A stretch of 45,853 nucleotides of DNA, from contig CALLBD010000045.1 of NCBI GenBank assembly GCA_938001915.1, positions 1-45,853 of the forward strand, given 5' to 3'. The DNA comes from an uncultured Caulobacterales bacterium. Its GTDB lineage: Bacteria > Pseudomonadota > Alphaproteobacteria > Caulobacterales > Maricaulaceae. Below, in pieces: positions 1 to 37,432 of the stretch. A program made the position numbers and the translations under genes. The notes beneath the pieces were generated by a model that searched no databases, was not told the origin of the DNA, and saw nothing but the letters and a program-made list of their open reading frames with translations. Within the stretch, counting starts at the first letter, position 1, and each line of letters starts with the position of its first letter.

Positions 1-330
1 GATCACAGGACAGGTAGAGCTCATCTGCTGGATTTGGAGACGATGGGTCTGAGCATCTGCGTGTGAGAGCGCGGACTGTGCCGGGATTTTAGGAGTGAGA
101 GCCGATGCCTGAGGCCAAAGTTGCCTTAACTGGTAGGACAGACGGGCCGCTTCTTCAAAAACCGTCGCCGCGTGGCTGATGCCTCGTAAAACAACTTTTC
201 TATTTGGTACTCCATCGGAGTATCGGCCACGCGGGCAGTCCTCATTCCAAGGCTTTCGCAATTCGCTGTACCCCAGATGGGCAGTCGCACATTCCGCATG
301 GCTCAAAATGTCCTCTCCTCCCGCGCCTGT
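1..330 (+). repeat. Dispersed intergenic element, copy A (left end outside window)
   Basis: Gene-less stretch before dnaB, homologous to 19579-20066 (+) and 36740-37432 (-). Shared blocks in order are GGACAGGT near 8-15, a 7-bp stem 56-62/69-75 with loop GTGAGA, GAGAGCCGA near 97-105, a block around GCTTCTTCAAAAACCGTCGC near 151-170, GTAAAACAA near 186, an 8-bp hairpin 206-213/217-224 with loop ATC, and CGGGCAGTCCT near 232. The right boundary is uncertain. Short open frames inside it are not convincing genes. It could be a structured RNA, a non-autonomous mobile element or a decayed gene; the stem covariation described in the findings favours RNA. Confidence 0.7.
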
Positions 331-445
331 AGTTATACCCAGCTTTCATGTGGACAAAATTGTATAAGAGGGTTAGTGACGAAATTAGGATAGTATTCCT
401 ATTTGGAATTAATGACATCCTGTCAAAAGCGAGTCACACACCCGT
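331..445 (+). promoter_or_regulatory. dnaB upstream region
   Basis: This 115-nt A+T-rich stretch separates element copy A from dnaB. It contains a small perfect inverted repeat, ATTCC-TATTT-GGAAT, near 394-408. No convincing -35/-10 pair or strong ribosome binding site could be fixed. It is presumed to hold the dnaB promoter because of its position only. Confidence 0.3.
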
Positions 446-1966
446 ATGGTTTTTCAAGCAGACAATGATTCGACAGACGGTTACGGGGCCGGTTCGGGTG
501 TAGAGCTCGACACGACCCCGCAGAGCCAAGAGGCCGAAGCCGCCCTGCTCGGCGTTTTGCTCTATGACAATGAAGTCTATCACAAGATTTCCCAAATCGT
601 TCAGGCCAAACATTTCTATAACCCCGTCCATGTCCGTATTTTCGATGCCGTGGCGCGCCTAATTGAGACAGGTAAACTCGCCGATGCGATTGTTCTCAAG
701 AACCGTTTCTCCCAAGATGAAACGCTCGTCGATATTGGCGGCGTGGAATATCTCGCGCTGCTGCTGGATAATGCCCCGCCGACATCGACAGCGACAGAAT
801 ATGCCAAGCTCATCTTTGACCTGGCTATGCGCCGCGAGCTTATCCGTCTGTCTGACCTGATTAAGCAAACCGCGACAGACCCCGACAGCGAAGCCGACGC
901 CCAAGCGCAAATCATCGAAGCCGAAAGCCAGCTCTATAATCTCGCGGAGCTCGGCGGGACACAGCAAGGCTTTGTTGATTTCGAAACCGCCCTTGTCGAG
1001 TCCATCGAAATGATGTCCGCCGCCTTTACGCGGGACGGCAATCTCTCTGGTATTTCAACAGGCTTAATTGACCTCGACCGACAGCTCGGCGGGCTACATA
1101 AATCAGATCTCATCATCCTCGCGGGGCGTCCGTCTATGGGGAAAACATCGCTTGCGACCAATATCGCTTTCCATGTTGCGAAACATTTCAAAAAACAAAA
1201 AGACGAAAACGGGATTGAGAAAACAATTGATGGCGGTGTTGTCGGCTTCTTCTCTCTCGAAATGAGCTCCGAGCAGCTCGCCACACGTTTGCTCGCCGAG
1301 CAATCGGGCGTGTCGTCCCACCATATTCGCCGCGGTGATATAACCACCGCGCAATATGAGCATATTCGCGATGCGGCGGATGAGATAATCCAAATCCCGC
1401 TCCATATTGATGATACGGGCGGCTTATCTATTGGGGCGTTATCTGCGCGGGCGCGACGGCTAAAACGGCAGCGCGGCCTTGATTGTATCGTGGTTGACTA
1501 TCTCCAGCTCCTTACGGGCGGTGCGGGCATGAATAGCTCTACCAACCGCGTGCAAGAAGTGTCGATGATTACGCAAGGTCTCAAAGCCCTCGCCAAGGAA
1601 CTTGATGTACCTGTCCTCGCCCTCGCCCAGCTCTCCCGTCAGGTTGAACAGCGCGATGATAAGAGACCGCAGCTCTCTGACCTGCGGGAGTCAGGCTCGA
1701 TTGAGCAAGATGCCGATGTGGTGATGTTCGTCTTCCGTGAAGAATATTACCTCGCGCGGACAGAACCGAGTGAGGACAATGTCGCCGAACATGAAGAATG
1801 GATGGCGAAGATGGAAAAGCTCCACGGCAAAGCCGAAGTCATCATCGGCAAACAACGTCATGGTCCCATCGGAACCGTCGCCCTCTCCTTCCAGCCAAAT
1901 CTCACAAAATTCGGCAATTGGATCGAAGAGGACTTTGGTAGCGGCAATGGCGGCGGTGCGTTTTAG
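446..1966 (+). CDS. dnaB: Replicative DNA helicase DnaB
   Basis: Hexameric 5'-3' helicase that unwinds DNA at the replication fork and binds primase. The 506 residues comprise the N-terminal DnaB domain (about 25-130), a linker, and the RecA-like C-terminal domain. Walker A is AGRPSMGKTS at 226-235 and Walker B is IVVDYLQLL at about 348-356, followed by the conserved QLSRxVE and SDLRESGSIEQDAD segments. Length is normal or slightly long for the family. The ATG at 446 is used; the ribosome binding site is weak. rpsR/rplI, which often precede dnaB, are not visible, although the window begins only 445 nt upstream. The next gene starts 8 nt after the stop and may be cotranscribed. Confidence 0.97.
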   Translation: MVFQADNDSTDGYGAGSGVELDTTPQSQEAEAALLGVLLYDNEVYHKISQIVQAKHFYNPVHVRIFDAVARLIETGKLADAIVLKNRFSQDETLVDIGGVEYLALLLDNAPPTSTATEYAKLIFDLAMRRELIRLSDLIKQTATDPDSEADAQAQIIEAESQLYNLAELGGTQQGFVDFETALVESIEMMSAAFTRDGNLSGISTGLIDLDRQLGGLHKSDLIILAGRPSMGKTSLATNIAFHVAKHFKKQKDENGIEKTIDGGVVGFFSLEMSSEQLATRLLAEQSGVSSHHIRRGDITTAQYEHIRDAADEIIQIPLHIDDTGGLSIGALSARARRLKRQRGLDCIVVDYLQLLTGGAGMNSSTNRVQEVSMITQGLKALAKELDVPVLALAQLSRQVEQRDDKRPQLSDLRESGSIEQDADVVMFVFREEYYLARTEPSEDNVAEHEEWMAKMEKLHGKAEVIIGKQRHGPIGTVALSFQPNLTKFGNWIEEDFGSGNGGGAF

Positions 1967-1973
1967 GTCACTT

Positions 1974-2378
1974 ATGCGCCACGTTAAATTCATTCATATT
2001 TCGGTCATTGGGGTCATGCTGCAAGCCGCAGATGCCTACGCAACCCAACCGATATGCCCCGATTTTTCATCTGAAATTGAACCAGATATGCAACGAAAAG
2101 AGACTGACTTTACGCAAGATAATTATAAATTCTCGCAACAAATGCTTGAGGTAACCCTCCCAGAATGGATGGAGTCAGCTTTTCAGCAGAACAAAAAATT
2201 CCCTGAAACCTACGAGAACTTATTTCAGGGTGATGTATGGTTAGCTCATATGAACCATTCCGCTACCGTTAAAGGCTATGTGTTAAAGTTAGAATATCTT
2301 GCTGCCCAACCCGAACAAAAAGAAGTTGCTAGAAAACGGTTCTGTAAATTCTTGGTTGAGACATCTTATTTCGATTAA
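1974..2378 (+). CDS. Small exported protein of unknown function
   Basis: 134 residues with a typical signal peptide (basic MRHVK, hydrophobic core, likely cleavage after about residue 23 near AYA). The mature part is hydrophilic and has two cysteines, one soon after the signal and one near the C terminus (RKRFCKF), which could form a disulphide in the periplasm. I do not recognise the family. A longer frame opens at 1737 inside dnaB, but the ATG at 1974 gives the signal peptide and has an AGG seven nt upstream overlapping the dnaB stop. It is A+T-richer than dnaB. Probably transcribed with dnaB. Confidence 0.65.
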   Translation: MRHVKFIHISVIGVMLQAADAYATQPICPDFSSEIEPDMQRKETDFTQDNYKFSQQMLEVTLPEWMESAFQQNKKFPETYENLFQGDVWLAHMNHSATVKGYVLKLEYLAAQPEQKEVARKRFCKFLVETSYFD

Positions 2379-2452
2379 ACTCTATTCGTTCCCGAACAGA
2401 CGGGGGCGATTACAGTAGATTTCTTCAAAATACCGAGCATAGCTCAGGCGTT

Positions 2453-3097
2453 TTAGGATTTCCGCAATCCCAAACCCTCTAACCGCCAACGCAGCGTCTC
2501 AATCCTATCTTGCCCAAAAAATGGCTCTCCCTGCACCACCATCGTCGGTACGCCCCAATGGCCCACGGCGTCTAATGCCTGATGATTGCGCTCTACTTCT
2601 TCGAGGTGATCGCCGTCACTTATGGCCGCTTCCATCTGGGCCAAATCGAGGCCTGCGGCGGCGGCGGCATTGGCGAGATGCTCCCCTTCATCCCACTTAT
2701 CTATACCCCCAAAAATTACATGCGAAACTTCCTTCGCAAAGGGCAAACCTTTGTCGCGCCGCTGCGCCTCTACGCCTAACTTCGCGAGGCGTTTAATGAG
2801 TGGCTGCTCTTCGGCGACCTTGAAGGTTTGATAGTCTTGCGTCACAGGATCAGGGTTTGTCGGAAACGCATAGGGCATGCCCAGAAACTCCGCGCGTCGC
2901 ATGCTGTCCATCAAAATATAAAAGGCGGGCTTGCGGTTTGAACTATCGAAAAGCGCCGCCTTCGACCGCACAGCAATAGGCAGCACCACGCGCAAATTCA
3001 TTTCGACATCATAATCCTCCGCAATCTTCAAAAGCCCCGGCGTCGCCAGATAGGAATAAGGACTGCGGAATGACCAGTAAACGTCGATAGGTTCCAT
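2453..3097 (-). CDS. DsbA-family oxidoreductase / 2-hydroxychromene-2-carboxylate isomerase-like
   Basis: 214 residues with the kappa-class GST/DsbA thioredoxin-like fold. The N terminus IDVYWSFRSPYSYLA is the characteristic SPYSYL motif in which Ser replaces the DsbA catalytic Cys, as in 2-hydroxychromene-2-carboxylate isomerases. Near the C terminus, GHWGVPTMVV carries the cis-proline loop (GVPT), followed by FFGQDRI. The family isomerises glutathione-linked aromatic intermediates, but many members are uncharacterised and no aromatic catabolism genes are adjacent. The ATG at 3097 has GGAG six nt upstream; an upstream TTG at 3109 is less likely. It converges with the preceding exported protein. 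Confidence 0.85.
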   Translation of the reverse strand: MEPIDVYWSFRSPYSYLATPGLLKIAEDYDVEMNLRVVLPIAVRSKAALFDSSNRKPAFYILMDSMRRAEFLGMPYAFPTNPDPVTQDYQTFKVAEEQPLIKRLAKLGVEAQRRDKGLPFAKEVSHVIFGGIDKWDEGEHLANAAAAAGLDLAQMEAAISDGDHLEEVERNHQALDAVGHWGVPTMVVQGEPFFGQDRIETLRWRLEGLGLRKS

Positions 3098-3198
3098 GAG
3101 GTTCTCCAATAACAGGCTTCAATGTTTCAGAGCATGATATAGTTTCGGGAGTCAACGTATCACAGAACCACGCCGCCCTATTTACCGCAAGGCCCTGT

Positions 3199-3582
3199 CT
3201 AATATTTGGAGCGCTCGCCATGAGGTCGCCGCGCATCTTCCAATATGCGGCGTTTGATTTGCGCGAGCGTGAAACCGATTGACTTACGCCGAAATAATAT
3301 GGGCGCGACCGCCGATAGCTCGTAGCGATAGGCGTCCTCATGTTTCCTCATCAGCTCCTTGTGGAGCGAGCGTATCATCACAATGTGCCCGCCGCGAATA
3401 AGGGTGTAATAGAACGCAAAGAACCCGATCACCGTCGCCACATGGTCCTTATTCACATCCCCGTCCCCAAAAGCCGACACGACATAGAGAAAGACTAAAA
3501 GACAAAACATCGTTGGCAGGACAATACGTTGCAGCCAGATCCGCAAGGAAAGATATTCGGCAATGAGCGTTTCTGGCGTCAT
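3199..3582 (-). CDS. Small two-helix membrane protein, unknown function
   Basis: The likely product has 127 residues starting at MTPETLIAEYLSLRIW. Two hydrophobic segments (about 18-37 and 45-69) are followed by a basic cytoplasmic tail rich in Arg and Lys. I do not recognise a domain. An open frame extends upstream to 3801 across the ychF start, but that part is very unlikely to be coding. No strong ribosome binding site precedes the ATG at 3582. It is divergent from ychF, with about 140 nt between the starts. Confidence 0.6.
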   Translation of the reverse strand: MTPETLIAEYLSLRIWLQRIVLPTMFCLLVFLYVVSAFGDGDVNKDHVATVIGFFAFYYTLIRGGHIVMIRSLHKELMRKHEDAYRYELSAVAPILFRRKSIGFTLAQIKRRILEDARRPHGERSKY

Positions 3583-3620
3583 AATGCGCGAGGGATAGCG
3601 CCAAAAACACGCTATGAAAA

Positions 3621-3691
3621 TGGGGCAATTTGACAGGCCCCACTGCCCGTTAGGTCTTGACGCTGCGCGGCGGGACTGAAAAGAGCCGCGC
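3621..3691 (+). promoter_or_regulatory. Two hairpins in the ychF upstream region
   Basis: Two perfect inverted repeats lie between the divergent starts. TGGGGC (3621-3626) pairs with GCCCCA (3637-3642) over a 10-nt loop. GCGCGGC (3665-3671) pairs with GCCGCGC (3685-3691) over a 13-nt loop, about 30 nt before the ychF ATG. The second could fold in the ychF leader. Neither is followed by a U-tract, so they are not typical terminators. Confidence 0.4.
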
Positions 3692-3721
3692 GAGTTCAAA
3701 AGTTTAGTTTCGGAGTCCCCC

Positions 3722-4819
3722 ATGGGTTTCAAATGCGGTATTGTTGGTCTGCCAAATGTAGGGAAATCTACCTTGTTTAATGCGCTGACTAAAACGGCCA
3801 ATGCACAAGCCGCGAATTATCCTTTCTGCACGATTGAGCCCAATGTGGGCGACGTGGCCGTGCCTGACCATCGCCTTGATACGATTGCTAAGATTGGCGG
3901 CTCTGCGCAGATCATTCCTGCGCGCATGAATTTCGTCGATATTGCGGGCCTCGTCAAAGGCGCATCCCAAGGCGAAGGTATGGGCAATCAATTTCTGGCA
4001 AACATTCGGGAAACAGACGCTATCATATATGTGCTGCGCTGTTTTGAAGATGAAGACATCACCCATGTCGACGGCCGCATCGACCCCATGAGCGATTTCG
4101 AAACGATTGAAACAGAGCTGATGCTCGCGGATCTTGAGAGCTTGGAGAAACGCAAGCCGGGCCTTGAGAAAAAGCTCAAGCAAAAAGATGCTGATGCACT
4201 CCAAACCATGCGCTTAATTGAAATGGCCATTGCCGCCCTCGAAGACGGTAAACCGGCCCGCACCGTTGAGATTGATGAGGAGGACAAAAAGGCCTGGAAA
4301 ATGCTGCAGCTCCTGACGTCGAAACCCGTGCTCTATGTCGCCAATGTCGATGAAGACAGCGCGGCGACGGGTAATGATTTCTCCGCCAAAGTTGTCGACC
4401 ATGCCGAATCTGAAGGCGCGCAAGCCGTAATTATCTCTGCGCAAATCGAGTCTGAAATGGCCGTATTGGAAGATGAGGAACAGGCCGAGTATTTAGACGC
4501 GATAGGCCTAACCGAACCGGGGCTGAACCGCCTTATCCATAAAGGTTATGCGCTCCTCGACCTGCGGACTTATTTTACAGTGGGCCCCAAAGAAGCGCGC
4601 GCTTGGACTTTCCAAACAGGATGGAAGGCGCCGCGCTGTGCCGGCGTCATTCACGGTGATTTTGAAAAAGGTTTTATCCGCGCGGAAACCACCGCCTATG
4701 ACGACTATGTCTCAAATCATGGCGAGCAAGGGGCGAAGGAAGCCGGTAAAGTCCGCCAAGAAGGCAAAGACTATGTCGTGCAGGACGGCGACATAATGTT
4801 ATTTAAATTCAACGTTTAG
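3722..4819 (+). CDS. ychF: Redox-regulated ATPase YchF (Obg-related)
   Basis: 365 residues, the usual length for the YchF/OLA1 family. P-loop GLPNVGKST is at 9-17 and the G3 region reads [10 protein letters not shown]. The G4 position reads NVDE (208-211), fitting the NxxE pattern that gives YchF its preference for ATP over GTP. A coiled-coil segment lies around 130-190 and the C-terminal TGS domain ends in [14 protein letters not shown]. The family binds ribosomes and is linked to stress responses and translation. GGAG lies about six nt before the ATG. In many proteobacteria the gene follows pth; here its neighbour is an unrelated divergent membrane protein. Confidence 0.96.
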
Positions 4820-4893
4820 TCCGGCGCAGGCGTTTAGGCGAATTTAACGTCTTCCGTTCCATAAAGCCTCCACGTAACTGGAGCGCTGCATAT

Positions 4894-5337
4894 ATGCAAA
4901 AATTTCTATTCGCCCTTTGCCTATCTGCCCTTGCGGCGCCAGCGCTTGCCACGGATTCAGGGGACGCTGCCTTTGAGCTCTTAGCGAAATATTCAGCTGA
5001 GACGCAACAAGAGAACTTTATTAAACTCCAGAGCGCAATTGACATAACAGATGCAAAATCCATTGACGCAAAAATCTCCGAGATTTACGGCGCGCCAAAA
5101 GTCGACCGCAGCGGATTGAAGGTTTGGGAGGTTAAAAACACAACCGGACACGGGCCGAAATTCACAACCATCATGTGCGGACCAGATAAAGAGGGCGGCA
5201 TTTGGATCTCCGCCGACAGACGTGGAAAAGCCGTTACGAAAGCCGCGAAAGGTCAGGAGCGTCCCTCGCCTAAGTCACCTCCCATCGGCCGCGCCAAAAG
5301 GTCAAAAGTCGTTCCGCGCGCCCTCGAGCGGGATTAA
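4894..5337 (+). CDS. Exported protein of unknown function
   Basis: 147 residues with a clear signal peptide (MQKFLFALCLSALAAPALA, cleavage near residue 19). The mature region has an acidic helical part (about 22-60) and then a compact segment ending in IMCGPDKEGGIWISADRR. The last 35 residues are basic and proline-rich. No family is recognised. GGAG lies about 11 nt before the ATG. It follows ychF by 74 nt on the same strand, but no functional link is evident. Confidence 0.7.
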   Translation: MQKFLFALCLSALAAPALATDSGDAAFELLAKYSAETQQENFIKLQSAIDITDAKSIDAKISEIYGAPKVDRSGLKVWEVKNTTGHGPKFTTIMCGPDKEGGIWISADRRGKAVTKAAKGQERPSPKSPPIGRAKRSKVVPRALERD

Positions 5338-5419
5338 ACGCAAGAATAGAGGCAAAGACCCGTTCCGCATTAAGACTTTTCTAATCTTACTTAACCTATT
5401 TGCTTTGGGGTGTGATAAT

Positions 5420-5437
5420 GCAGGCACGATAGCCTGC
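5420..5437 (+). promoter_or_regulatory. Small hairpin before the DUF11 protein gene
   Basis: GCAGGC (5420-5425) and GCCTGC (5432-5437) form a perfect 6-bp stem with a 6-nt loop. It ends 7 nt before the AGGGTGAG ribosome binding site at 5445-5452. Without a U-tract it is more likely a leader structure than a terminator. Confidence 0.3.
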
Positions 5438-5456
5438 GGCAATTAGGGTGAGAACG

Positions 5457-7406: not shown

Positions 7407-7426
7407 AGCCTTAGCTTACCCGGTAA

Positions 7427-7963
7427 TCAGTGCCCCTCAAATTCAACAAGGGCGGTGACAGGAACGTTTAACGCTTCAATCCGCGTTGCCCCGCCTAGGT
7501 CTGGCAAGTCAATAACGAAAGCCGCGCCAACCACATCGCAATTTGTGCGCTGCAATAATTTAATGGCGGCTTCTGCGGTTCCGCCCGTCGCGATTAAGTC
7601 ATCAATCACAAGAACGCGCTGGCCTTTGGCTACGGCATCGGCATGAATTTGGAGCGTATCCGTCCCATATTCCAAGGCGTAGTCTTGCTCATATGTCTCA
7701 AACGGGAGCTTCCCTGCTTTCCGGACAGGCACAAAGCCCACACCTAAAGCCAACGCCACCGCCGTGCCAAAAATAAATCCGCGCGCATCAATGCCCGCAA
7801 CGATATCAATCTTCGCGTCTTTAAACGGCAAGGCCAGATTATCCACGGCCTGCTGCAAGGCGGCGGGATGCGACAAGAGCGTCGTAATATCGCGGTACAT
7901 AATCCCCGCTTCTGGAAAATCAGGGATAGTGCGAACGTGGTCTTTCAAATTCAAACTAGGCAT
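7427..7963 (-). CDS. apt: Adenine phosphoribosyltransferase
   Basis: 178 residues, the normal APRT length. It converts adenine and PRPP to AMP and pyrophosphate in purine salvage. The PRPP-binding motif VLVIDDLIATGGT is at 117-129. The N-terminal IPDFPEAGIMYRDITTLL and the GIDARGFIFG loop are typical of APRT. Its start overlaps the end of the upstream glutathione transferase-like gene by 8 nt (7956-7963), so it is the last gene of a minus-strand run and probably translationally coupled. It converges with the DUF11 protein gene, with only 20 nt between stops and no obvious terminator. Confidence 0.96.
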   Translation of the reverse strand: MPSLNLKDHVRTIPDFPEAGIMYRDITTLLSHPAALQQAVDNLALPFKDAKIDIVAGIDARGFIFGTAVALALGVGFVPVRKAGKLPFETYEQDYALEYGTDTLQIHADAVAKGQRVLVIDDLIATGGTAEAAIKLLQRTNCDVVGAAFVIDLPDLGGATRIEALNVPVTALVEFEGH

Positions 7964-9838: not shown

Positions 9839-9852
9839 TCGCACCTCATAAC

Positions 9853-11958: not shown

Positions 11959-12028
11959 TGGTTTTAACAGCTTTCATTCCTAGAGTTTAAACGAGTCTCT
12001 TTAATATTATCCATAGGCTATCATTTCG

Positions 12029-13018: not shown

Positions 13019-13019
13019 A

Positions 13020-18730: not shown

Positions 18731-19504
18731 ATGCTATCCCAACTTGATCATATTGTCCTGCTAACCCGAAATTTCCAAAGCGCGATTCATGACTATGAAA
18801 TTCTTTTTGGGTTTGGGCCCGATGAATTTTCAAATCATCACGGTTTTCAAACAGCTTTATTTCGAACGAATAATACAAGCCTGGAAATCTTGGCGCCGCA
18901 AAGTGAGGCGGCCATTTCGAGGACAGGCGAGATTTTAGGAAAAGCTCCCTCCAGACTCACCTCCCTCGCATTTGGCGCTCACGATTTAACAGAGGTTCAT
19001 AGAGTTTTGAAACGCCGCGGGGGAGAGCCCACAGACATATCATCCGCTTTTCGTTTATCCGATGAGGTCTGCGCAGGCGTAAAAACCTTTATCGTCTCTG
19101 AGAACGCCCTGCCCAGAGAGAAAAATATTGGCCTCGATCATTTAGTGATAAACACGCCGAACCCCGACCGCGCGATTGCGCATTACGGCGCGCGGCTCGG
19201 GATTCGTTTTGCGCTGGACCGTAAGAACACGGATTGGGGCGCAAGATTTCTCTTTTTTAAACTGGGTGACATCGTACTCGAAATTATTCACCGCATGGAT
19301 CAAGAACACGACCTATTGGCACCAGATGAGCTATGGGGTCTCACTTGGAAAGTAGATAATATCGCTGTCCATCACGCACGCCTCTCTCAGCAGAATGTCA
19401 CCCTTTCTGAAATTAGAACGGGCCGCAAACCCGGCACGCAGGTCTTCACGGTTAAAAGCCATACGGACAATATTCCAACGCTTTTCTTGATGGGTAAGGG
19501 GTGA
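18731..19504 (+). CDS. VOC family protein (glyoxalase-like, two modules)
   Basis: 257 residues with two vicinal-oxygen-chelate modules. The first begins LDHIVLLTRNFQSAIHDYE, the second GLDHLVINTPNPDRAIAHYG (about 136-155), each giving the usual N-terminal His. LEILAPQ and LEIIHRM supply the Glu expected at the metal site. Substrate cannot be assigned; the layout resembles the Glyoxalase_3/lactoylglutathione-lyase-like group. It stands alone between the VWA operon and a repeat element. Confidence 0.85.
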   Translation: MLSQLDHIVLLTRNFQSAIHDYEILFGFGPDEFSNHHGFQTALFRTNNTSLEILAPQSEAAISRTGEILGKAPSRLTSLAFGAHDLTEVHRVLKRRGGEPTDISSAFRLSDEVCAGVKTFIVSENALPREKNIGLDHLVINTPNPDRAIAHYGARLGIRFALDRKNTDWGARFLFFKLGDIVLEIIHRMDQEHDLLAPDELWGLTWKVDNIAVHHARLSQQNVTLSEIRTGRKPGTQVFTVKSHTDNIPTLFLMGKG

Positions 19505-19578: not shown

Positions 19579-20066
19579 CATAAAACCGCAGTTTCAAAAA
19601 ACATAATCCCCGCTTTCAAAAGCTGTGTCACACTAAACGGGTTCTTTCGGACATAGGACAGGTGAGACGTCGCTTACTGGTTCGGAAGACGGTGTGTCTA
19701 GGCAAAGTGAGTGATGCCGCTTTGTCGGGGCCAGAGGGCGAGAGCTGCACCTCCTGAAACGGGGGCAATCCAGTACGGCCGTTTTCTGTAAGCACCGCCG
19801 TAAGGCCTAGCATTTGGCACACGTCAAATGCGGGGGTTGATTGATTTAATATCAGTCGACTTCGGCTTTTGCGTAAAATATATTTCTTTTCGGTACTCCG
19901 TCGTGGAGGCCGACCTTACGGGCAGTCCTTCTTTCGAAGGCTGTGCCTTCCATGCAGGCGCGGCCGCCTATGACGATATTCCTGCAAGTCCTCAGATGGC
20001 CTGCGAGCGTTTTCGCTTGTCTCGAAACACGAGCCTGAAAGAAAACGGTCTAATTTCACACACCAT
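19579..20066 (+). repeat. Dispersed intergenic element, copy B
   Basis: Gene-less region of about 620 nt between the VOC and lipoprotein genes, mostly filled by this element. The first 85 nt (19579-19665) are nearly identical to the reverse complement of 37345-37432 in copy C, including CATAAAACCGC, TTTCAAAAAACATAATCC and TTCTTTCGGACATAGGACAG. Then come a stem 19701-19707/19720-19726, a block GGCCGTTTTCTGTAAGCACC, a perfect 7-bp hairpin 19810-19816/19825-19831, GCGTAAAATATATTTCTTTT, GGTACTCCGTCG and CGGGCAGTCCTTC. The right end is approximate. Frames at 19628-19822 (-) and 19828-20070 (+) look spurious. Confidence 0.75.
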
Positions 20067-22659: not shown

Positions 22660-22769
22660 AAGCAGGCGCTTAGCGGATTGGACACTTTTCGCCAAGCAAT
22701 CTTGCACACGGTCCCTAAAGCTGCACTGCGGCAGAGGAACTGAGGCACGATAATTGCATCGTGAGTTGC

Positions 22770-25090: not shown

Positions 25091-25189
25091 CCCTACCCAT
25101 TGGCCCCGTTTGGTTGCGCCTTCAAGATGTGAGGCAGAAGAGAATGAGGCTTTTACACCTTCGTCACAAAATGCAATAGCGCGCGCAAT

Positions 25190-27070: not shown

Positions 27071-27073
27071 GTC

Positions 27074-29925: not shown

Positions 29926-30629
29926 AAGGCGGAACTCGCAAAAACATGTAGGTTTTGCCCTGCAGTCAGCAGCGCTTTGACAGGCGACTCAAGACGGGGC
30001 TTATTGATAGCGGCATCGAAAACCGCCCGCTTCTCGTTCCCGGGAATAAATAGAACGACGGCATGAGACTTCAACACAGCTTGTAGCGTTAAACTAATGC
30101 GCTCAGGGTGATCACCTGCGACAGGGGCGCCTGTTGCATCTATCGCACATAAAATATTGAGATGGTTAAGGTCGAGAGCCGCCTCCAATCCTTTTGACCG
30201 CGGAAACCAAGACGCTGTATGCATATCCAAACCCATTCCCATAACGCAAACGTCAAACGGCTGCGGAACAGAATTAAACCTTCTTTCCGAGTGTCTAAGG
30301 CCCGCTTTGGCCGTTGCCTGCGGCGTTTTTAGCCCGAAGAAATTCGCCTTAGAGGCCTTATCTTGAATGAGAGTGGCGCGAATAAAATCTTCGTTGGAGC
30401 CTGGCTGGCCGGGATCAACCCACCGTTCATCGACAAGGCTTATCGCAATCTTTGACCAATCTAAATCTGCACGAGACAATTTTTCATAGAGCGGCCGGGG
30501 GGAGCTACCTCCGCTTACCATCAAGCTCGCTTCACCGCGCGTAATCAGAGCTTGTCTCAGTATCGCTTCAATCGCGACTGCGGCGTCAGACGCAATGTCA
30601 GGCCCTTCATACATGTTGAAATCAGACAT
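29922..30629 (-). CDS. pgl: 6-phosphogluconolactonase
   Basis: 235 residues of the SOL/DevB family. It hydrolyses 6-phosphogluconolactone to 6-phosphogluconate. SGGSSPRPLYEKL (39-51) is the sugar-phosphate loop and SLVDERWV (64-71) the second signature. The ATG at 30629 overlaps the zwf stop as TAATG. A further in-frame start upstream at 30647 lies inside zwf and is unlikely. Between zwf and edd in the glucose operon. Confidence 0.94.
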   Translation of the reverse strand: MSDFNMYEGPDIASDAAVAIEAILRQALITRGEASLMVSGGSSPRPLYEKLSRADLDWSKIAISLVDERWVDPGQPGSNEDFIRATLIQDKASKANFFGLKTPQATAKAGLRHSERRFNSVPQPFDVCVMGMGLDMHTASWFPRSKGLEAALDLNHLNILCAIDATGAPVAGDHPERISLTLQAVLKSHAVVLFIPGNEKRAVFDAAINKPRLESPVKALLTAGQNLHVFASSAL

Positions 30630-32113
30630 TATTTGACATCCGACCATTCATCACCCTGCTGGGCCAGCATTCTCTCGGCCCCTGTCGGGCCATCCGATCC
30701 CGCGGGATAATATGAAACAGCTTGCCCCACTTCTTCCCACGCATTTAAAATCCCGTCACACCATGTCCATGCGGCCTCAACTTCATCACGCCGCATGAAG
30801 AGCGACAAGTTCCCTCTGACCACATCCATGAGCAAACGCTCATAGGCGTCGGGATAGCGAACTGTAAAATTATCAGCATATGACAAGTTCAAGGGCAAAG
30901 TTTTTAACCGCAACCCACCTGCACCTGGCTCTTTAATTTCCATCCATAGGTTTACCGCCTCGTCTGGCTGCAAACGAATAACGAGCTTATTAGGATTAAC
31001 GGGAGTTCCCTCTCCGAAGATAGAATGCGGGACGGGTTTAAATTGTATGATAATCTCGGATCTACGGGTGCGCATACGTTTGCCTGTCCGAATATAAATC
31101 GGAACGCCTTGCCAGCGCCAGTTATCTACCTTTGCATGTATCGCGACGTAGGTTTCAGCATCGCTTTCTTCCAATTCAACATCCGTAAGGTAATCTGGTG
31201 CCATTTCACCGTCTACTTTCCCTTTCACATATTGGCCTCGAACCGTCGCCTCCTCGACATTTTCGGCCGTAATCGGCGCCAAAGCTCTTAAAACCTTAAT
31301 CTTTTCCAGACGCAGATCATCCGCCGCCGTAGACCCTGGCGCCTCCATCATCGTCAGGCAGAGCAATTGAAGTAAGTGATTTTGCACCATATCCCGCAAC
31401 GCGCCCGACTTATCATAGTAAGATCCTCGTCCGCCTGCGCCGATTGACTCGGCGACAGTGATTTCAATGTGCTCAATTGAGTCCCTATTCCAAAGCGGCT
31501 CCAATAAAACATTTCCGAAGCGCAGAACGAGCAGGTTTTGAACCGTTTCTTTGCCAAGAAAATGATCAATCCGGTAAATGCGTTTCTCTGAAAAAACTTG
31601 GCCAACGGCCTCGTTAATTTCATCCGCAGATTTAAAATCATGCCCCAAAGGTTTTTCGAGTACGACGCGGCTTTGTTTGTGAGCTAGTCCTGCCGCCTTC
31701 AAACCTTGACAAATATTCGCAAAAAGAGCCGGCGGCATTGCCAAATAAAAGACACGAATAAGTTTCTTCGAGGCGTCTAATTTTTTACCTAACTCAGACC
31801 AATCTTTGCTGGAGGTAACGTCAATTGCCACATAGTCCAAAAGTTCACAGAATGCGTTCCATTTTGTATCAGACAAAGTGACTTCAGGATTGAAGGACTG
31901 GTAAGCCTCTTTAATCTTAGCCAGATATTCGTCTCGCGTTAGCTTGGAACGGGACGCGCCGATAATTCTGGATTTTTTTGAAATCTGCCCATCGCAAAAA
32001 CGGTGATAGAGGGAAGGAATGAGTTTGCGGCGCGCCAAATCCCCAGTGCCGCCAAAAACAACAATTTCGAAAGGCTCTACTGGGACGAAGGCCGATCCTG
32101 CATCTTGAGCCAT
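30629..32113 (-). CDS. zwf: Glucose-6-phosphate 1-dehydrogenase
   Basis: About 494 residues from the ATG at 32113. The NADP-binding GGTGDLARRK is at 21-30, and the catalytic RIDHFLGKE motif starts at Arg181 with the substrate-binding His184 region. It oxidises glucose 6-phosphate to 6-phosphogluconolactone. A GTG at 32176 with AAGGA seven nt upstream would add 21 residues; the shorter form is closer to usual family length, but the site is open. First gene of zwf-pgl-edd-glk, preceded by a LacI-type operator. Confidence 0.95.
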   Translation of the reverse strand: MAQDAGSAFVPVEPFEIVVFGGTGDLARRKLIPSLYHRFCDGQISKKSRIIGASRSKLTRDEYLAKIKEAYQSFNPEVTLSDTKWNAFCELLDYVAIDVTSSKDWSELGKKLDASKKLIRVFYLAMPPALFANICQGLKAAGLAHKQSRVVLEKPLGHDFKSADEINEAVGQVFSEKRIYRIDHFLGKETVQNLLVLRFGNVLLEPLWNRDSIEHIEITVAESIGAGGRGSYYDKSGALRDMVQNHLLQLLCLTMMEAPGSTAADDLRLEKIKVLRALAPITAENVEEATVRGQYVKGKVDGEMAPDYLTDVELEESDAETYVAIHAKVDNWRWQGVPIYIRTGKRMRTRRSEIIIQFKPVPHSIFGEGTPVNPNKLVIRLQPDEAVNLWMEIKEPGAGGLRLKTLPLNLSYADNFTVRYPDAYERLLMDVVRGNLSLFMRRDEVEAAWTWCDGILNAWEEVGQAVSYYPAGSDGPTGAERMLAQQGDEWSDVK

Positions 32114-32256
32114 TCTTTTGCCCCCCGACGTCTTACGATAATTCGCACTGGAGGTTTTGGCGCTTTGCTTTGTCACCTGTATTTCCTTTTTTACAGACAG
32201 CGTCCTTAGACGGCCTCTTAGCGCGACTGCGCCTAATTGTCCAAGGTATGTCTCGT

Positions 32257-32271
32257 TATGACAGCGCTGTC
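32257..32271 (-). promoter_or_regulatory. LacI-family operator overlapping a -35-like hexamer
   Basis: TGACAGCGCTGTCA (32257-32270) is a perfect 14-bp palindrome with central CG, the form typically bound by LacI-family regulators. On the minus strand it overlaps a consensus TTGACA (32271-32266). The corresponding -10 (CATACC or ATACCT) is weak. It lies 144 nt before the zwf ATG at 32113 and 63 nt past the lacI stop, so the linked regulator is a natural candidate to bind it. Confidence 0.7.
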
Positions 32272-32333
32272 AATTAAGAAAGAGAGACGCAGTAAGTACG
32301 TCAAACTACGCTGTTATCGACACATATTTCTTC

Positions 32334-33353
32334 TCATTTGAGCGCGGTCACCGACCCCCTCACCTTGATTTCGAAGTCTAAAATTTGGCTATTTCCTGAG
32401 AGGTCATCAGCCTTCCGCACCAGTTCCTTTGTCGCTTGATAGCCCATTTTATATATTGGCTGCTTGACCGTTGTTAGAGCCGGCCAGATAACGCGCGCCA
32501 AAGGCGTGTCATCAAACCCACATACAGATAGCGAACACGGCACATCTATACCCATTTGCCCCGCAACAGAAATGACAGCCGCAGCCATATCATCATTAGA
32601 CGCAAAAATGGCTGTGGGCCTGGCTTCTTGCGGCACACTTAAAAGCTCACGTGCCGCTTGAACGCCCGATTCATAAGAAAAATCGCCCTGCGCTACTAAA
32701 TCGTCCACAACATCGACGCCTGCGGTCCGCATAGCGCGTGCAAATCCAGCATATCTTAGGCCCGCGCTAGAATGATCAACATGCCCTTGGATGAAGCCAA
32801 TTCTCTCATGGCCCTTGGATAATAGAAATTGTGTCATTTCATAAGCGGCTGTTTCGTCATCCATGCCAACGCAAGGCAATGCCATCTCGTTTTTCGGTGC
32901 AATACGTACAGATTTTACCCCAAGCTCTTTCAACACAGCTAACACGGCCTTATCGTCACTGAGCGGCGGTGTTAAAATAACCCCGTCCACGGGGAGGCGA
33001 TCTAAAACTTCACGCGTAAGCTTGACCTTTTCATCATAGGATGCCGCGCCAACGAGAGACATGGGCTCAACAACAAGATGATAACGTGCCTCACGACAGG
33101 CCTCAATCGCACCGCGCTGAATAAGAGAAATATAGTTAGGTGTGGGGTTGTCATAGATTAAAGCGATTAAGAAGGACTTCGACGTCGCAAGGCCTCTCGC
33201 CGCAAGATTAGGAAAATATCTGAGTTCGTCAGCTATAGCCTTAACATGCTCCCTCGTTTTTTCAGCGACGTTAGGCTCATTATTTAAGACGCGGGAAACG
33301 GTCTTTATAGAAACACCCGCTTTTTTGGCAACATCTGTAATCGTAACCTTCAT
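32334..33353 (-). CDS. LacI-family transcriptional regulator
   Basis: 339 residues from MKVTITDVAKKAGVSIKTVS, with the N-terminal LacI helix-turn-helix (about 3-26) and hinge, then a periplasmic-binding-protein-like sugar domain (DGVILTPPLSDDKAVL, ERIGFIQGHVDHSSAG, FASNDDMAAAVISVA). GAGGG precedes the ATG at 33353; an upstream open frame to 33413 adds 20 unlikely residues. Being directly upstream of zwf-pgl-edd-glk on the same strand suggests it controls glucose use. Effector is not known. Confidence 0.93.
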   Translation of the reverse strand: MKVTITDVAKKAGVSIKTVSRVLNNEPNVAEKTREHVKAIADELRYFPNLAARGLATSKSFLIALIYDNPTPNYISLIQRGAIEACREARYHLVVEPMSLVGAASYDEKVKLTREVLDRLPVDGVILTPPLSDDKAVLAVLKELGVKSVRIAPKNEMALPCVGMDDETAAYEMTQFLLSKGHERIGFIQGHVDHSSAGLRYAGFARAMRTAGVDVVDDLVAQGDFSYESGVQAARELLSVPQEARPTAIFASNDDMAAAVISVAGQMGIDVPCSLSVCGFDDTPLARVIWPALTTVKQPIYKMGYQATKELVRKADDLSGNSQILDFEIKVRGSVTALK

Positions 33354-33882
33354 ATCCCTCGATTTCCCGCTTCTCAGCCTTCCTAGACAACTGCCATGCG
33401 CCTCTATTCCCAACTCAGCTCTATGTCACGCAAATCCGCAAAAGTGGACTCGGAGGGCAAGGTCATTCATTGTCTATCTTGGGAGAAGATTTTGTTTGGT
33501 TTCTGGCTTTAAATTAAAACAGCTATTTCGAAATCATGGCAGCAATAGATATCGGCGATACCATAGCCGACACGACTCCCAATCAGGGCAGGTATTTCAG
33601 TTATAGACCCAAAAGAGAGAGAAGGATCAAAACAAGCGCAATTAGAATTTGTTTTGCAATGGCAATCATGTTTTTCTTTTATACAAAAAAAGCACAGCTG
33701 ACTAGCCCCCATTTTGATATTTCAACCAGACGTCCCTTAAAGGACGCGTTCACGATTATGCGCTTAACGAAAAAGAGGCTGGCCTATATGTCATTTGGAT
33801 TGTCGCAAAAACTTCATAAAAATATCGCAGCGCCGTTAAATGTTTCGATTATCGATGCATCGAAGTGAAAGGATAACAGGTC
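33354..33882. other. A+T-rich gap without a confident gene
   Basis: About 530 nt between lacI and phoU. Open frames at 33536-33868 (+) and 33509-33712 (-) have no ribosome binding site and no recognisable domain. A 22-codon minus-strand frame starting at about 33669 (MIAIAKQILIALVLILLSLL) is hydrophobic but unsupported. It probably holds the divergent lacI and phoU promoters. AAAGGATAACAGG before 33883 is the phoU ribosome binding region. Confidence 0.5.
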
Positions 33883-34602
33883 ATGATTCAGAACGGCGCC
33901 CATATCGTTTCGGGCTATGACGAAGAATTACTTAGCCTTACAAATGACCTAACTGACCTCGGGACATTGGTAAGCGAAATGGTCGATAACGCCATGTATG
34001 CTTTTAAACAGGGCGACAGCGCTTTAGCACAAGACGTAATAGAGCGAGATAATAAGGCCAATGCGCTCCAACTAAAAATCGACCAAGCCGTGCAGCACAT
34101 TATCGCAAAACGAAACCCCGTCGCGCAAGACCTTAGGAGCATCATCGGTGCATCTCGGATAGCCTCTGATCTCGAACGCGTTGGCGATTTAGCGGAAGGG
34201 ATCGCGCGGCGCGCGGTGGTTATCAATAAAGAAGCCCGCATTGACATGTCTCGATCGGTCTACCGCATGGGGAAACAAGTTCGAACACAGCTGGCCGGCG
34301 CGCTGGAGTCCCTACTGAAAGGCGACTCTCTTGCCGCGCTCCATTTTTGGCAAGCCGACAGTGATCTGGATGATTTATATGATTCCCTATTCAAGGAATT
34401 GGTCACCGTAATGATGGGGGATCCGCGCAAAATTCCTATATGCACAGAGCTTTTATTTGTCGCCAAAAACCTAGAGCGAATAGGCGATCACGCGACGAAC
34501 ATCTGCGAGGCCGTATATTTCACGGACAAAGCCGATCAGCTAATCAACGACCCCGCCCTGCAGCATCACAAGGCGCGGCAAGATGGCTCCGAAACGCGCT
34601 AG
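33883..34602 (+). CDS. phoU: Phosphate signalling complex protein PhoU
   Basis: 239 residues with two PhoU helical repeats. Metal-binding type motifs are present: IASDLERVGDLAEGIARRA (first repeat) and KNLERIGDHATNICE (second). It modulates PhoR and Pst in phosphate sensing. The usual neighbours pstSCAB and phoB are absent, so it is a detached phoU. An AAAGGA site precedes the ATG. Its TAG stop overlaps the TAG of the convergent PepSY-like gene through the shared CTAG at 34599-34602. Confidence 0.93.
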   Translation: MIQNGAHIVSGYDEELLSLTNDLTDLGTLVSEMVDNAMYAFKQGDSALAQDVIERDNKANALQLKIDQAVQHIIAKRNPVAQDLRSIIGASRIASDLERVGDLAEGIARRAVVINKEARIDMSRSVYRMGKQVRTQLAGALESLLKGDSLAALHFWQADSDLDDLYDSLFKELVTVMMGDPRKIPICTELLFVAKNLERIGDHATNICEAVYFTDKADQLINDPALQHHKARQDGSETR

Positions 34603-35150
34603 AGTATAAATCCAACTAATATGAACAGGACAACCCCCACGGTGACGGCAATGGTCGTCTGGCGTCTATAGGTTTTCGCTAAGAGCCCCACTAAAATCCC
34701 GCCCAGCACGACCCCAAGCAGTAAAAGCGCCACGAATTTTTGGTAAGATTTAAATATCTGCGGTCCATGTCCCTTGTGTAATTCCATCATAGACATGACG
34801 TTATCGGGCTTGACCCGCGAGGCCGTTAATCCCCGTGGCGTTTGCCGGAATTCGAGATAAGTCTTTGATGTTGGGCGCAATTGAATAACGGTTCCGCGGT
34901 TTCTGATATACTCAAAATCATGGGAAATATTCGCCTCCGAAAGAAGGGCGCGAACCTCCGCCTCAAGTGTGGAGCTCTTGAAATCAAGTGCAGCGCCCTG
35001 GGGCAGAGCTACCCGTTCAGTAGCGGCCTTTCCCTTTATATTCATCAAATATAGTCCGCCCGAAATGGCGTGAAGCGCAAAAGCTGGTGCCATTAAACCG
35101 GCGAACCACAGGTGAGCCAGCACAAGATATTTACGGAGCTTAGGAGACAT
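34599..35150 (-). CDS. PepSY-associated membrane protein
   Basis: 183 residues. An N-terminal helix (about 9-33, LAHLWFAGLMAPAFALHAISGGLYL) with a His, an intervening soluble part (about 34-125) with PepSY-like features, and two helices near the C terminus (about 137-159 and 162-182). The HxW/HAISG pattern and Fur-like box upstream fit a family of inner-membrane proteins found with iron uptake; whether it reduces ferric compounds is inference. The ATG at 35150 has AGGTGG six nt upstream. Convergent with phoU. Confidence 0.72.
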   Translation of the reverse strand: MSPKLRKYLVLAHLWFAGLMAPAFALHAISGGLYLMNIKGKAATERVALPQGAALDFKSSTLEAEVRALLSEANISHDFEYIRNRGTVIQLRPTSKTYLEFRQTPRGLTASRVKPDNVMSMMELHKGHGPQIFKSYQKFVALLLLGVVLGGILVGLLAKTYRRQTTIAVTVGVVLFILVGFIL

Positions 35151-35191
35151 ATTACCCACCTGATTAAATGGCGCTGATAGAACAGCCCTTA

Positions 35192-35208
35192 TTGAGAATG
35201 GTTCGCAA
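35192..35208 (-). promoter_or_regulatory. Fur-like box upstream of the PepSY-like gene
   Basis: TTGAGAATGGTTCGCAA is a near-perfect palindrome (six of seven arm pairs match) with the GAGAAT-n-GTTCGC pattern of proteobacterial Fur boxes. It lies 41 nt before the ATG at 35150, where a promoter would be expected. Confidence 0.55.
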
Positions 35209-35266
35209 TACTGAGTTGTGCTGATAAGGTCAATAGAGCAATAAGTTCACAAGACGCATCCAAAGT

Positions 35267-35845
35267 TCATACCCTATGTTTATTCATGACCTCTCGCACC
35301 CTAATTAAATCCTCATATGTATCTACGTCTTGCGCAAACGCCTTATCTAATTCGAGTGTTTTCAAGTTAAGCCTGTCAAATATTGACCGCGCCGTTACGC
35401 CAGAACTCTGCGTCAAAAGCAGCTCCATACTGGCCTCATTAAAAATCGCAGGCGGCATGCGTACAGATTCAGACATACTGATAACCGACTGATCTATTGT
35501 ATAATTTTCAATTAATTTTTGAAGATGGGATGTGGGGACAAGCGGCATATCACCCAGTATAACCGCACAAGACCGCCACCCTTTTATTCTCACAGCCTCA
35601 AGACCAAGCCGTAAGCTATACCCCTGCCCGCGTTCGGGATTTATGTTCTTCACCCAATCTATCTTTTCAGGGCCTGCCGCCTTGGCAATACAAAACACGT
35701 CGCCAAAACCCATAGCGGTCACGGTATCAAGAACATGGGATAAAACGGGCTTTCCGCAAAGATCCGCATTCAGCTTATCTGACGAACCAAAGCGTTTAGA
35801 TAATCCACTCGCCAGAACCACACAGGCAATCTCACCCGCGCTCAT
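35267..35845 (-). CDS. MocA/MobA-like nucleotidyltransferase
   Basis: 192 residues of the GT-A-like NTP transferase family. The N-terminal LASGLSKRFGSSDKL is the nucleotide-binding loop, and AVILGDMPLV carries the metal-binding Asp. Relatives transfer CMP to molybdopterin. It overlaps the XdhC gene by four nt (35842-35845), so the pair is coupled and probably matures a molybdenum hydroxylase, although none is encoded here. Confidence 0.88.
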   Translation of the reverse strand: MSAGEIACVVLASGLSKRFGSSDKLNADLCGKPVLSHVLDTVTAMGFGDVFCIAKAAGPEKIDWVKNINPERGQGYSLRLGLEAVRIKGWRSCAVILGDMPLVPTSHLQKLIENYTIDQSVISMSESVRMPPAIFNEASMELLLTQSSGVTARSIFDRLNLKTLELDKAFAQDVDTYEDLIRVREVMNKHRV

Positions 35846-36681
35846 ATGAGCGCCGCACTTTGTGCCGCCTGAATAATTTCAGCCAATATCGAGATTGCTA
35901 AAAGGCGCGCATCTCGCTGCGAGGCGATAAGGCCAATGGGCGCATGAATTCGGTCAATATCTTCTCGCGCCACAGCTAATTGGCTCAGGGTCTCGCAGCG
36001 TATTTCATGGGTTCGGACACTCCCCATCGCGCCGACATAAAAGGCAGGCCCCGCCAACGCTTGCTGTAACAACGCCGCCTCCCAATCATGATCATGAAAC
36101 AAACACACCACCGCAGTATATATATCATCCTCACTGGCGGGCGGTATCTCTGGGTGTTTCAAATGCTGCGCATCTGGGAGAATATGCGCATCTGGCGATT
36201 GTACGCGAACCGCAAATCCACTGCGCACTGCGAGTTCCGCGAGCGCCAAACACACCTCCCCTCGTCCTGCAATTCGTAGCTTTATGCGCGGGGACAGCGA
36301 GATAGAAAAATCGCCAAAATTTAGCGTCGCCGTCTGACGCGCATTCAAATCATCCAAGGCGCTCTGAATAGCCGCCCTATCTGGCTGTTGGATAATCGCT
36401 ATGTCTAAACGCCCGCCGCAGGGCAAAGAAATATCTCGATAGGGCGAACCCTCACCATAGATAAAAACACCCGACTCCCCGCCGCGCGCGCGCGCGATTA
36501 CATCGGCGTCGATACATCCATTTGAGATATAGCCTACCGCCTGCTCTGCTGTGACAGCCATCATCGCGCCCTTTGCGCGTAAAGTCCCGCCTGTCACACC
36601 GCGCAAAACAACCAAAACTGCCTCGGCATGGCCGGTGCAGTAGCGCAATACATCTTCAGCTCGATCATAGGTTTGATCCAT
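35842..36681 (-). CDS. XdhC family molybdenum-enzyme maturation protein
   Basis: 279 residues. The N-terminal XdhC/CoxI domain (about 10-80, AVLVVLRGVTGG) and the C-terminal Rossmann domain with YVGAMGSVRTHEIR and HAPIGLIASQRDARLLAISILAEI. XdhC proteins carry sulphurated molybdenum cofactor to xanthine dehydrogenase-type enzymes. No xdh or cox genes occur within the window. ATG at 36681; first gene of the pair with the MocA-like enzyme. Confidence 0.9.
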   Translation of the reverse strand: MDQTYDRAEDVLRYCTGHAEAVLVVLRGVTGGTLRAKGAMMAVTAEQAVGYISNGCIDADVIARARGGESGVFIYGEGSPYRDISLPCGGRLDIAIIQQPDRAAIQSALDDLNARQTATLNFGDFSISLSPRIKLRIAGRGEVCLALAELAVRSGFAVRVQSPDAHILPDAQHLKHPEIPPASEDDIYTAVVCLFHDHDWEAALLQQALAGPAFYVGAMGSVRTHEIRCETLSQLAVAREDIDRIHAPIGLIASQRDARLLAISILAEIIQAAQSAALI

Positions 36682-36739
36682 AGGCGTAGATTATGCACCT
36701 TAGCCCTCATGGCAATGCTTTATTGGCGAGTAAGCCGCC

Positions 36740-37432
36740 CCGGAATGAAGGCCACAATCGATCCGGATTGCAGTGTAGCGCCGAACGGCTAAGTCGTTCG
36801 GTGTGCGATGTTAGGGATTTAGACATGCGGAAGTTTCCACAGCCCATCTCGTGACTGCCGAAGCTTAGAATTAAAACAGGACGTGCCCGCAGATGTGTCT
36901 TCCCGATGGACGCGAAACGTCCGCAATCGACCCTGTGAGTCGATTGCAGCGAAGCGCCGAACGGCTAAGTCGTTCGGTGTGCAATGTTAGAGTTATAGGC
37001 AAGTTGAATTCCTCACTGCCTATCGAGAGGTCAGCCGAACTAAAATACAAAAACAGGACATGCCCGCAGATGTGTCTTCCCGATGGAATACCAAGGGGTA
37101 GAAGAAGTTTTGTTTTACGCGAAGACTGGTGGAATTGGCTTACAGCCAAATCCACAGCGTGCATTTTTTGCAGAGCAAAAATTGCACTATCTGCGGCGAT
37201 GGTTTTTGAAGAAACGGCCAGTCATAAACCCCTGAGTTCAGCCACTTGGACTGACAGGTCGGCTCTCGTTCCTAAAGCCCCGGCACCTCCCAAGTTCTCA
37301 CACTTGAGCGCTCAGGCCCATCGTCCTCCAGACGGCAAGCGAGGCCTCACCTGTCCTATGTCCGAAAGAACGAGTCTAATTTAACACAGCTTTTGAAAGC
37401 GTGGATTATGTTTTTTGAAAGGGCGGTTTTAT
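36740..37432 (-). repeat. Dispersed intergenic element, copy C, with internal tandem duplication
   Basis: Gene-less stretch between xdhC and the helicase gene. Read on the minus strand it begins at 37432 with the same ~85 nt as copy B, then the stem 37308-37302/37295-37289 with loop GTGAGA, GAGAGCCGACC, GGCCGTTTCTTCAAAAACCA, an extra ~13-bp hairpin (37159-37187), GCGTAAAACAAAACTTCTTC and GGTATTCCATCGGG. Its end carries two units about 170 nt apart, with CCGAACG hairpins at 36781 and 36957 and an AAAACAGGACRTGCCCGC block at 36873 and 37040. A 163-codon plus-strand frame through it is probably spurious. Confidence 0.75.

Follow-up and report, generated by a model that had tools for sequence, protein, structure and literature searches.

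A structured RNA family with dozens of copies in marine Litorimonas bacteria carries a switching palindromic loop suggestive of self-association

What is the element of which three diverged copies lie between the genes of a 45,853-base stretch of DNA from an uncultured Caulobacterales bacterium? This stretch, the window in what follows, is the whole of contig C45 of a draft genome (G000; 2.6 Mb in 120 contigs, with a completeness of 89.65%) from the Litorimonas group of the Robiginitomaculaceae, and NCBI taxonomy places Litorimonas in the Maricaulales, Robiginitomaculaceae. A sequence-only reading of the window had proposed that the copies (A, B, and C) were either a multicopy structured RNA or a non-autonomous mobile element. 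The first part of this proposal is borne out by copy counts with a covariance model in this and related genomes and by compensatory changes, while mobility is possible, the evidence pointing both ways. It is very well supported by sequence comparison that the copies belong to a large structured RNA family, new and previously uncatalogued, and that this family has dozens of copies in many marine Litorimonas bacteria. Its members are probably genes for free-standing structured RNAs of ~300–600 nucleotides (nt) that would act in trans and associate with themselves.

The likeness of the three copies goes beyond chance, with E-values of 6.4e-15 (A), 3.9e-13 (B), and 1.5e-20 (C) against R1, a model of the 5' domain; copy C is among the sequences from which R1 was built, and copies A and B are not. 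Read on their own strands, the blocks and stems lie where the sequence-only reading had located them. The stem described there is hairpin P5, found at 56–62/69–75 in copy A (56–75, plus strand), 19701–19707/19720–19726 in B, and 37308–37302/37295–37289 in C (37289–37308, minus strand), with the loop GTGAGA common to A and C and a 12-nt loop in B, and it is compensatory indeed, all 7 of its pairs showing double changes in 28 sequences and again in 97. The blocks GTAAAAYAW and GGTAYTCCRTCG are also present but are not separate, as together, one half each, they make up the loop of helix P8. The extents given to the copies needed revision, since conservation would place the RNA proper at about 1–303 (A, plus strand), 19641–20022 (B, plus strand), and 37371–36821 (C, minus strand). 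These ends are approximate because the closest genomes are just ~70–74% identical beside copy B, and copy A is short, without promoter and first bases, because the left end of the contig falls inside it. R1 matches 1–90 in copy A (model positions 9–99, the 5' part being cut off), where P7, P8, GTCCT, and tail strings are also present, 19641–19734 in copy B, which has a variant middle module and a tail end string, and 37274–37371 in copy C, with tails at 36997–37037 and 36821–36860.

Comparison of the copies establishes a conserved predicted fold made up of P1, hairpin P3, a P4/P5 domain, helix P7, and helix P8 with its strongly conserved loop, together with a less well supported helix, P6, around an exchangeable middle module. 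The 5' domain (P1, P3, P4, and P5; 25 pairs) was followed in two alignments, A1, with 28 sequences (14 from G000 and 14 from relatives), from which R1 derives, and A2, with 100 R1 matches from 99 chosen sources aligned to R1, giving 97 distinct rows. It is 97.3% paired in A1, with double changes at 17 of the 25 pairs, and in the 97 rows 96.9% of 2353 cells are paired, with double changes at 24 of 25; none of 500 shuffles was as high on any of five measures, and slid controls gave 26–54%. The P3 stem is 95.6% paired, with double changes at 5 of its 6 pairs. For P7, 29 distinct strand pairs are 91.8% paired (shuffled mean 77.4%, maximum 83.2% of 1000), in a count where part of each strand is dictated by the search patterns, for the shuffles as well, and where 4 of 83 copies had no P7 strand and several mis-anchored copies were kept in. 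Helix P8, on which a second model (R2) was built, has 86.9% of 350 cells paired in 35 distinct sequences (slid controls, 36–52%), with double changes at 8 of 10 pairs, and is 87.2% paired in 64 distinct sequences. In the P8 loop region, 11 columns do not vary among the 35 sequences (GUAAA ... GG ... CC.UC), which were collected by a pattern that requires much of this invariant motif. A pseudoknot AGGAC/GTCCT crossing P1 is likely, its fifth pair being variable (A-T 20, G-C 25, G-T 22, T-A 1, and T-T 12, n = 80, with C just opposite G), and the tail forms one or two more hairpins, by reading and not by count. In the window, helix P8 with its loop UAAAACA...GGUACUCCAU lies at 178–224 (plus strand) in copy A, which was itself missed by the pattern used to collect P8 sequences, the covariation coming from other copies. 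Copy B has P7 (19798–19805/19914–19921) around P8 (19864–19873/19902–19911) within 19798–19921 of the plus strand, again with covariation seen in other copies, and its candidate pseudoknot joins AGGAC at 19655–19659 to GTCCT at 19925–19929, with weak covariation. The P7 of copy C (37189–37196/37064–37071; 37064–37196, minus strand) surrounds P8 and its loop (37073–37127), and both helices covary.

Across the aligned copies, the P3 loop region stays palindromic while its sequence changes, a feature that had escaped the sequence-only reading together with the upstream box, the pseudoknot candidate, and the mosaic build described below. Among the 97 distinct rows, this 12-nt region holds a palindrome of at least 6 nt in 83, of 4 nt in 13, and none in 1. 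About ten kinds occur overall: GACGTC (31), GAGGCCTC (21), GGCC (11), GAGCTC (10), AGCGCT (5), ACGCGT (5), AACGCGTT, TGATCA, GTCGAC, and GATATC (2 each), plus singles. Control segments after P1 and in P5 have palindromes of at least 6 nt in 0 and 1 of 97 rows, and any palindrome in 6 and 12. A wider set of 136 pattern anchors gave at least 6 nt in 111, 4 nt in 21, and none in 4, these last four not being the element by their sequence and having been left in the count; six control windows in the same elements reached 6 nt or more in 4–14 of 135–136 and exactly 4 nt in 35–47, and letter shuffles did so in 13 and 38%, respectively. Palindromes of 4 nt alone mean little because control windows and shuffles hold them often, and the weight lies on those of 6 nt with their approximately ten kinds. 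The window's own genome by itself has GACGTC, GAGCTC, GAGGCCTC, AGCGCT, ACGCGT, GTCGAC, and GATATC, and other genera keep the palindrome as well, with GACGTC in G028 and AACGCGTT in G137 and G027. Copy A carries GAGCTC at 17–22 (plus strand), a string located in the P3 loop region and of a kind counted in the tally, copy B GACGTC at 19666–19671 in a P3 hairpin spanning 19661–19678 (plus strand), and copy C GAGGCCTC at 37341–37348 in a P3 hairpin spanning 37334–37351 (minus strand).

Loop neighbours cannot pair mutually, and self-complementarity kept through all these changes therefore points to pairing between two molecules; palindrome switching of this kind is the signature of a symmetric kissing loop, which is well supported here by comparison. 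Each kind of palindrome is fully complementary to itself and not to the others, so the kinds within one genome would be separate. RNA molecules with the same palindrome would thus pair through P3 as a symmetric kissing loop and form homodimers, different palindromes without full cross-pairing would give several self-recognising sets in one cell, and the dimer, or a larger assembly, would present the conserved P8 loop to a putative partner. Dimerisation, assembly, regulation, and function of the RNA are what we infer from its sequence. The palindromes are palindromic in DNA too and might act there, as sites of a dimeric protein or a recombinase, the RNA fold being incidental at that place. This is very unlikely, however, as some ten different sequences at one place are ill-suited to one protein and the palindromes occupy the loop of a hairpin with a covarying stem.

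OLE, GOLLD, and ROOL RNAs are usually single genes. The family presented here is like them in being a large structured RNA with a kissing loop deduced from palindrome switching, and unlike them in its 8–52 chromosomal paralogs per genome, its approximately ten palindromes, its exchanged modules, and the lack of any Rfam match. The retroviral dimer initiation site is a hairpin with a 6-nt self-complementary loop, comparable to TGATCA, GTATAC, or ACGCGT here, although here there is no virus, no genome packaging, and another surrounding fold. The packaging RNA of phage Phi29 assembles through loop-loop contacts in a similar way, but its loops pair with unlike partners, whereas each loop of this family would pair with itself. 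Passages of PMC12286853 (PubMed Central) present OLE, GOLLD, and ROOL as large ornate bacterial RNAs forming homo-oligomers, ROOL being encoded in prophages and phages; they make the palindrome-switching argument for OLE and GOLLD, the symmetric kissing loop of OLE L9.3 being deduced from a switch of GGCC to GAUC or AGCU, mention retroviral RNA dimers, and name Phi29. The same source, in these passages, describes natural RNA homo-oligomers as rarely observed and their cellular relevance as mostly unproven. One mark of large ornate homo-oligomeric RNAs, a kissing loop supported by palindrome switching, is seen in the sequences of the present family too.

Two kinds of scan speak against a known family as the identity of the element. 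The whole window gave no match to Rfam 15 at the gathering score, and permissive scans (900–1600 of locus L020 at E ≤ 10; five further loci at E ≤ 1) returned just two hits below threshold and no credible match, namely RMST_1 (19 bits against a cut-off of 40, on the opposite strand) and RNAI (26 bits against 47, outside the element), in agreement with the sequence-only reading, which had not recognised any known RNA. We take GOLLD, ROOL, OLE, HEARO, introns, RNase P, and transfer-messenger RNA (tmRNA) to be contained in that release. A search of the window for transfer RNA and tmRNA found none, a distant blastn search of plasmids and phages with one copy had no match, and neither had a scan of viral contigs with one pattern. 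No account of the RNA came up in searches of open-licence PubMed Central papers, supplements excluded, and the main texts of PMC11109978 and PMC8632094 do not mention Hellea, Litorimonas, Maricaulis, Caulobacter, Robiginitomaculum, or Hyphomonas.

HEARO and omega RNAs, like the copies in this family, are dispersed. The element could serve an effector protein as scaffold or guide, in the way that HEARO/omega RNA serves IscB or IsrB, with the P3 palindrome just bringing two ribonucleoproteins together, and its similar size (~300 nt), structure, pseudoknot candidate, strongly conserved loop, and many dispersed copies would fit; HEARO has a length of 343 nt (according to a passage of PMC12286853). 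We consider this quite improbable given that nothing in the window reached the gathering score of an Rfam family, that six further copies have sub-threshold chance matches alone, and that the eight window proteins scanned near copies with Pfam include no IscB, IsrB, or TnpB, a distant effector gene not having been searched for.

The three copies are real, yet they are far from the total, which is about 40 in this genome. Copy B (488 bases) has 44 blastn matches in G000, some of them parts of one copy, and R1 has 38 matches in G000, 43 in the genome of Litorimonas cladophorae KCTC 23968 (G013, 100% complete), and 5 in G028. Within the genus, 8–52 R1 matches occur in 12 of 18 genomes and none at E ≤ 0.001 in the other 6. 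R1 matches are found in 29 of 137 genomes and 5 of 19 genera of the family, in 11 of 299 genomes of an order sample, every one of the same family, and in 1 of 385 genomes of a class sample, the window's own, these family, order, and class counts being lower bounds because the larger scans filter more strictly and evaluate few candidates in each genome. R1 matches in other genera include weak ones (E 1e-4 to 1e-6). R2 matches in 22 of the 137 family genomes, 21 of them shared with R1, G022 having R2 alone and eight genomes (G015 and seven of other genera) R1 alone. A pattern scan of contigs from 84,980 species, each represented by a single genome, which may omit records near the window, yielded 63 stretches, and every one of them is entitled Litorimonas cladophorae KCTC 23968, uncultured Caulobacterales, or Hellea sp. 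MAG-194. In G010, several R1 scores are identical (four at 100.9 bits and five at 91) and the family looks homogenised, some copies starting <150 bases from a contig end.

Most copies of the two genomes examined (G000 and G013) share an upstream box. Conservation upstream rises from <0.1 bit at -130 to 0.5–1.2 bits between -52 and -16, and the box TCCYCR is present at -60 to -28 in 38 of 43 G013 copies and 17 of 35 G000 copies (0–3 in control windows). It is likely a promoter, which would put the copies under shared control. The copies would be expressed together from it, with predicted transcripts that begin near GTTCTTTC and stop beyond the tail hairpin. In copy B, the putative promoter (19600–19637, plus strand) consists of the box AACATAATCCCCGC at 19600–19613 and a -10-like region at 19626–19637, and in copy C (37376–37412, minus strand) of AACATAATCCACGC at 37399–37412 and a -10-like region at 37376–37387. 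A second TCCYCR box was noticed at about -135 to -90 in 13 of 35 copies of G000 and 4 of 43 of G013 (3 and 0 in an equal-length control).

A same-strand gene follows closely on some copies, copy B among them, and the RNA could for that reason be taken as a cis-acting leader or riboswitch controlling the next gene. By crude gene picking, however, 14 of 39 G000 copies have their nearest downstream reading frame on the opposite strand (20 on the same strand and 5 with none), as do 20 of 43 G013 copies (23 on the same strand), which makes a leader extremely improbable. Cis-regulation through a fixed same-strand position is not supported, the downstream frames being on both strands, and by neighbour strand the copies appear as free-standing genes.

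The position of the copies bears on whether they are genes of the cell or a non-autonomous mobile element, its RNA structure working for the spread of the element and rendering no service to the cell. Dispersed bacterial repeats such as repetitive extragenic palindromic (REP) sequences and those resembling miniature inverted-repeat transposable elements (MITE-like) have many intergenic copies and a patchy distribution. This is also the case here, as in the 8–52 copies of 12 genus genomes against none at the threshold in 6, and copies are present at some orthologous sites and absent from others. The site of copy B is empty in seven relatives (G008, G012, G013, G004, G007, G009, and G010), where the flanking genes are joined with 174–202 bases between aligned ends, vs. 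~1.6 kb in the window including a glyoxalase-like gene; there is no clean junction because these 1.6 kb with a second gene differ. The RNA is found beside a DEAD-box gene in 3 of 7 genomes compared, window included, copy C being turned round relative to this gene in both G007 and G013. Stretches of 5 kb from G009, G005, G015, and G002 had no R1 match. On the other hand, the copies are longer than REP or MITE-like repeats, and their upstream box, exchanged modules, and fold of several helices with double changes set them apart too. Upstream similarity fades gradually (from about -40 to -120) with no sharp border, and no target duplication was noticed, no dedicated search for target duplications or terminal repeats having been made. 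When proteins within ~2.5 kb of 39 G000 and 43 G013 copies were compared (some G000 stretches being shorter), 13 position pairs with common flanking genes could be picked by hand, 5 on both sides (C70, C75, C16, C26:57262, and C49) and the rest on one, the pair at C114 being doubtful as its two flanks match two different G013 sites. The double changes and the box kept in two genomes, furthermore, point to selection on the RNA. A reverse transcriptase of the RVT_1 family had matches in 3 of 10 genomes tested; retrotransposition by an own enzyme is not supported, 4 of 7 carriers tested, G000 and G013 with their 38 and 43 copies among them, having no RVT_1 match. On balance a purely mobile element is unlikely, and such spread is compatible with free-standing, self-associating RNA genes, given that a dispersed gene can have spread in this way. 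Some copies are thus old in place, yet copies seem to move or arise over long times.

Copies also exchange parts. In 12 of the 13 position pairs the element is closer to a paralog of its own genome than to its positional counterpart, the exception being C2 (227 against 215). Dissection by pattern into three modules was achieved for 40 copies (25 of 39 in G000 and 15 of 43 in G013) and shows that they combine modules in different ways. The middle module is at least 95% identical in 9 pairs of G000 copies, yet identity falls below 65% for the 5' domain in 4 of these pairs and for the P7-P8 module in 4; G013 has 16 such pairs, with 5 and 8, respectively. The mosaic pattern fits exchange between copies, and recombination between them (gene conversion) would be what swaps the modules.

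Several points weigh against a family of free-standing, self-pairing RNAs with a common promoter and shuffled modules. A1 kept 28 of 56 entries, of one type, without large inserts and with duplicates dropped, and A2, unlike A1, was fitted to the model structure and favours it. Because the copies are related, shuffles and counts give no probabilities, and the independent evidence for the palindrome is roughly ten kinds; 13 of 97 rows hold just a 4-nt palindrome, common by chance, and the P3 loop of L147 (GGGACCTC) is not palindromic. The number of P8 pairs with double changes was reached by 17 of 500 shuffles. P6, in 20 distinct sequences, is barely above its shuffles (90.8% paired vs. 84.9%, maximum 91.7%; Watson-Crick pairs only, 71.7% vs. 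59.8%, maximum 69.2%). In the pseudoknot, the first four pairs are largely required by the search patterns, and the variation of the fifth partly follows species and includes the T-T of 12 of 80 copies. G015 has 11 R1 matches and no R2 match, the 3' domain being therefore not universal at the threshold used. The box is found in just 17 of 35 copies of the window's own genome, where upstream reading frames are moreover skewed (24 on the same strand as the copy, 11 on the other, and none in 4 of 39; 19 and 23 in G013). Finally, where two copies have P7-P8 modules at least 95% identical, their middle modules are never <65% identical (0 of 4 pairs in each genome).

A bolder extension, possible but rather doubtful, is that a multigene family on the chromosome supplies RNA building blocks whose self-pairing codes exclude one another. 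Several palindrome-defined homodimer sets in each cell would then form separate RNA-only or RNA-protein particles with a common P8 docking loop, and recombination would shuffle modules between sets. If true, this would mirror, in RNA, protein paralogs with orthogonal dimer interfaces. Among the dozens of paralogs of a genome the presumed contact has changed again and again yet stayed self-complementary, which makes RNA quaternary structure in cells directly testable, and L. cladophorae KCTC 23968, with its 43 R1 matches, is a named strain for doing so. The family also raises the question of how 30–50 dispersed copies stay functional while swapping modules.

Some minor observations concern the build of individual copies and the neighbouring genes. 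Small hairpin-forming inserts occur in P3 (L019, L037, L032, L027, and L040) or P5 (L023, L025, L029, and L034), as if a second, tiny repeat entered the RNA genes. In six G009 copies examined (L072–L077), the P8 region is preceded by an additional block containing AACGGTATCGCCGAC, which is absent by eye from the G013, G015, G003, and G028 copies compared. Copy C (36821–37371, minus strand) has a tandem second 3' end at ~36821–36910, formed within 36821–37086 by CATCGGGAAGACACATCTGCGGGCACGTCCTG plus a tail, and three further G000 copies (C26:57262, C36:10710, and C36:26265) show a similar 3'-end duplication. The eight window proteins scanned with Pfam were assigned to DnaB, glyoxalase-like, DUF6726, XdhC-like, DbpA-type helicase, and BLUF families, two having no family. 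The glyoxalase-like gene (18731–19504) encodes two domains, lies beside copy B, and is missing from the empty sites of the seven relatives; its protein used as query had no match in 9 genomes at E ≤ 1e-20, a result that shows little. A short BLUF blue-light sensor protein is encoded at 40279–40731.

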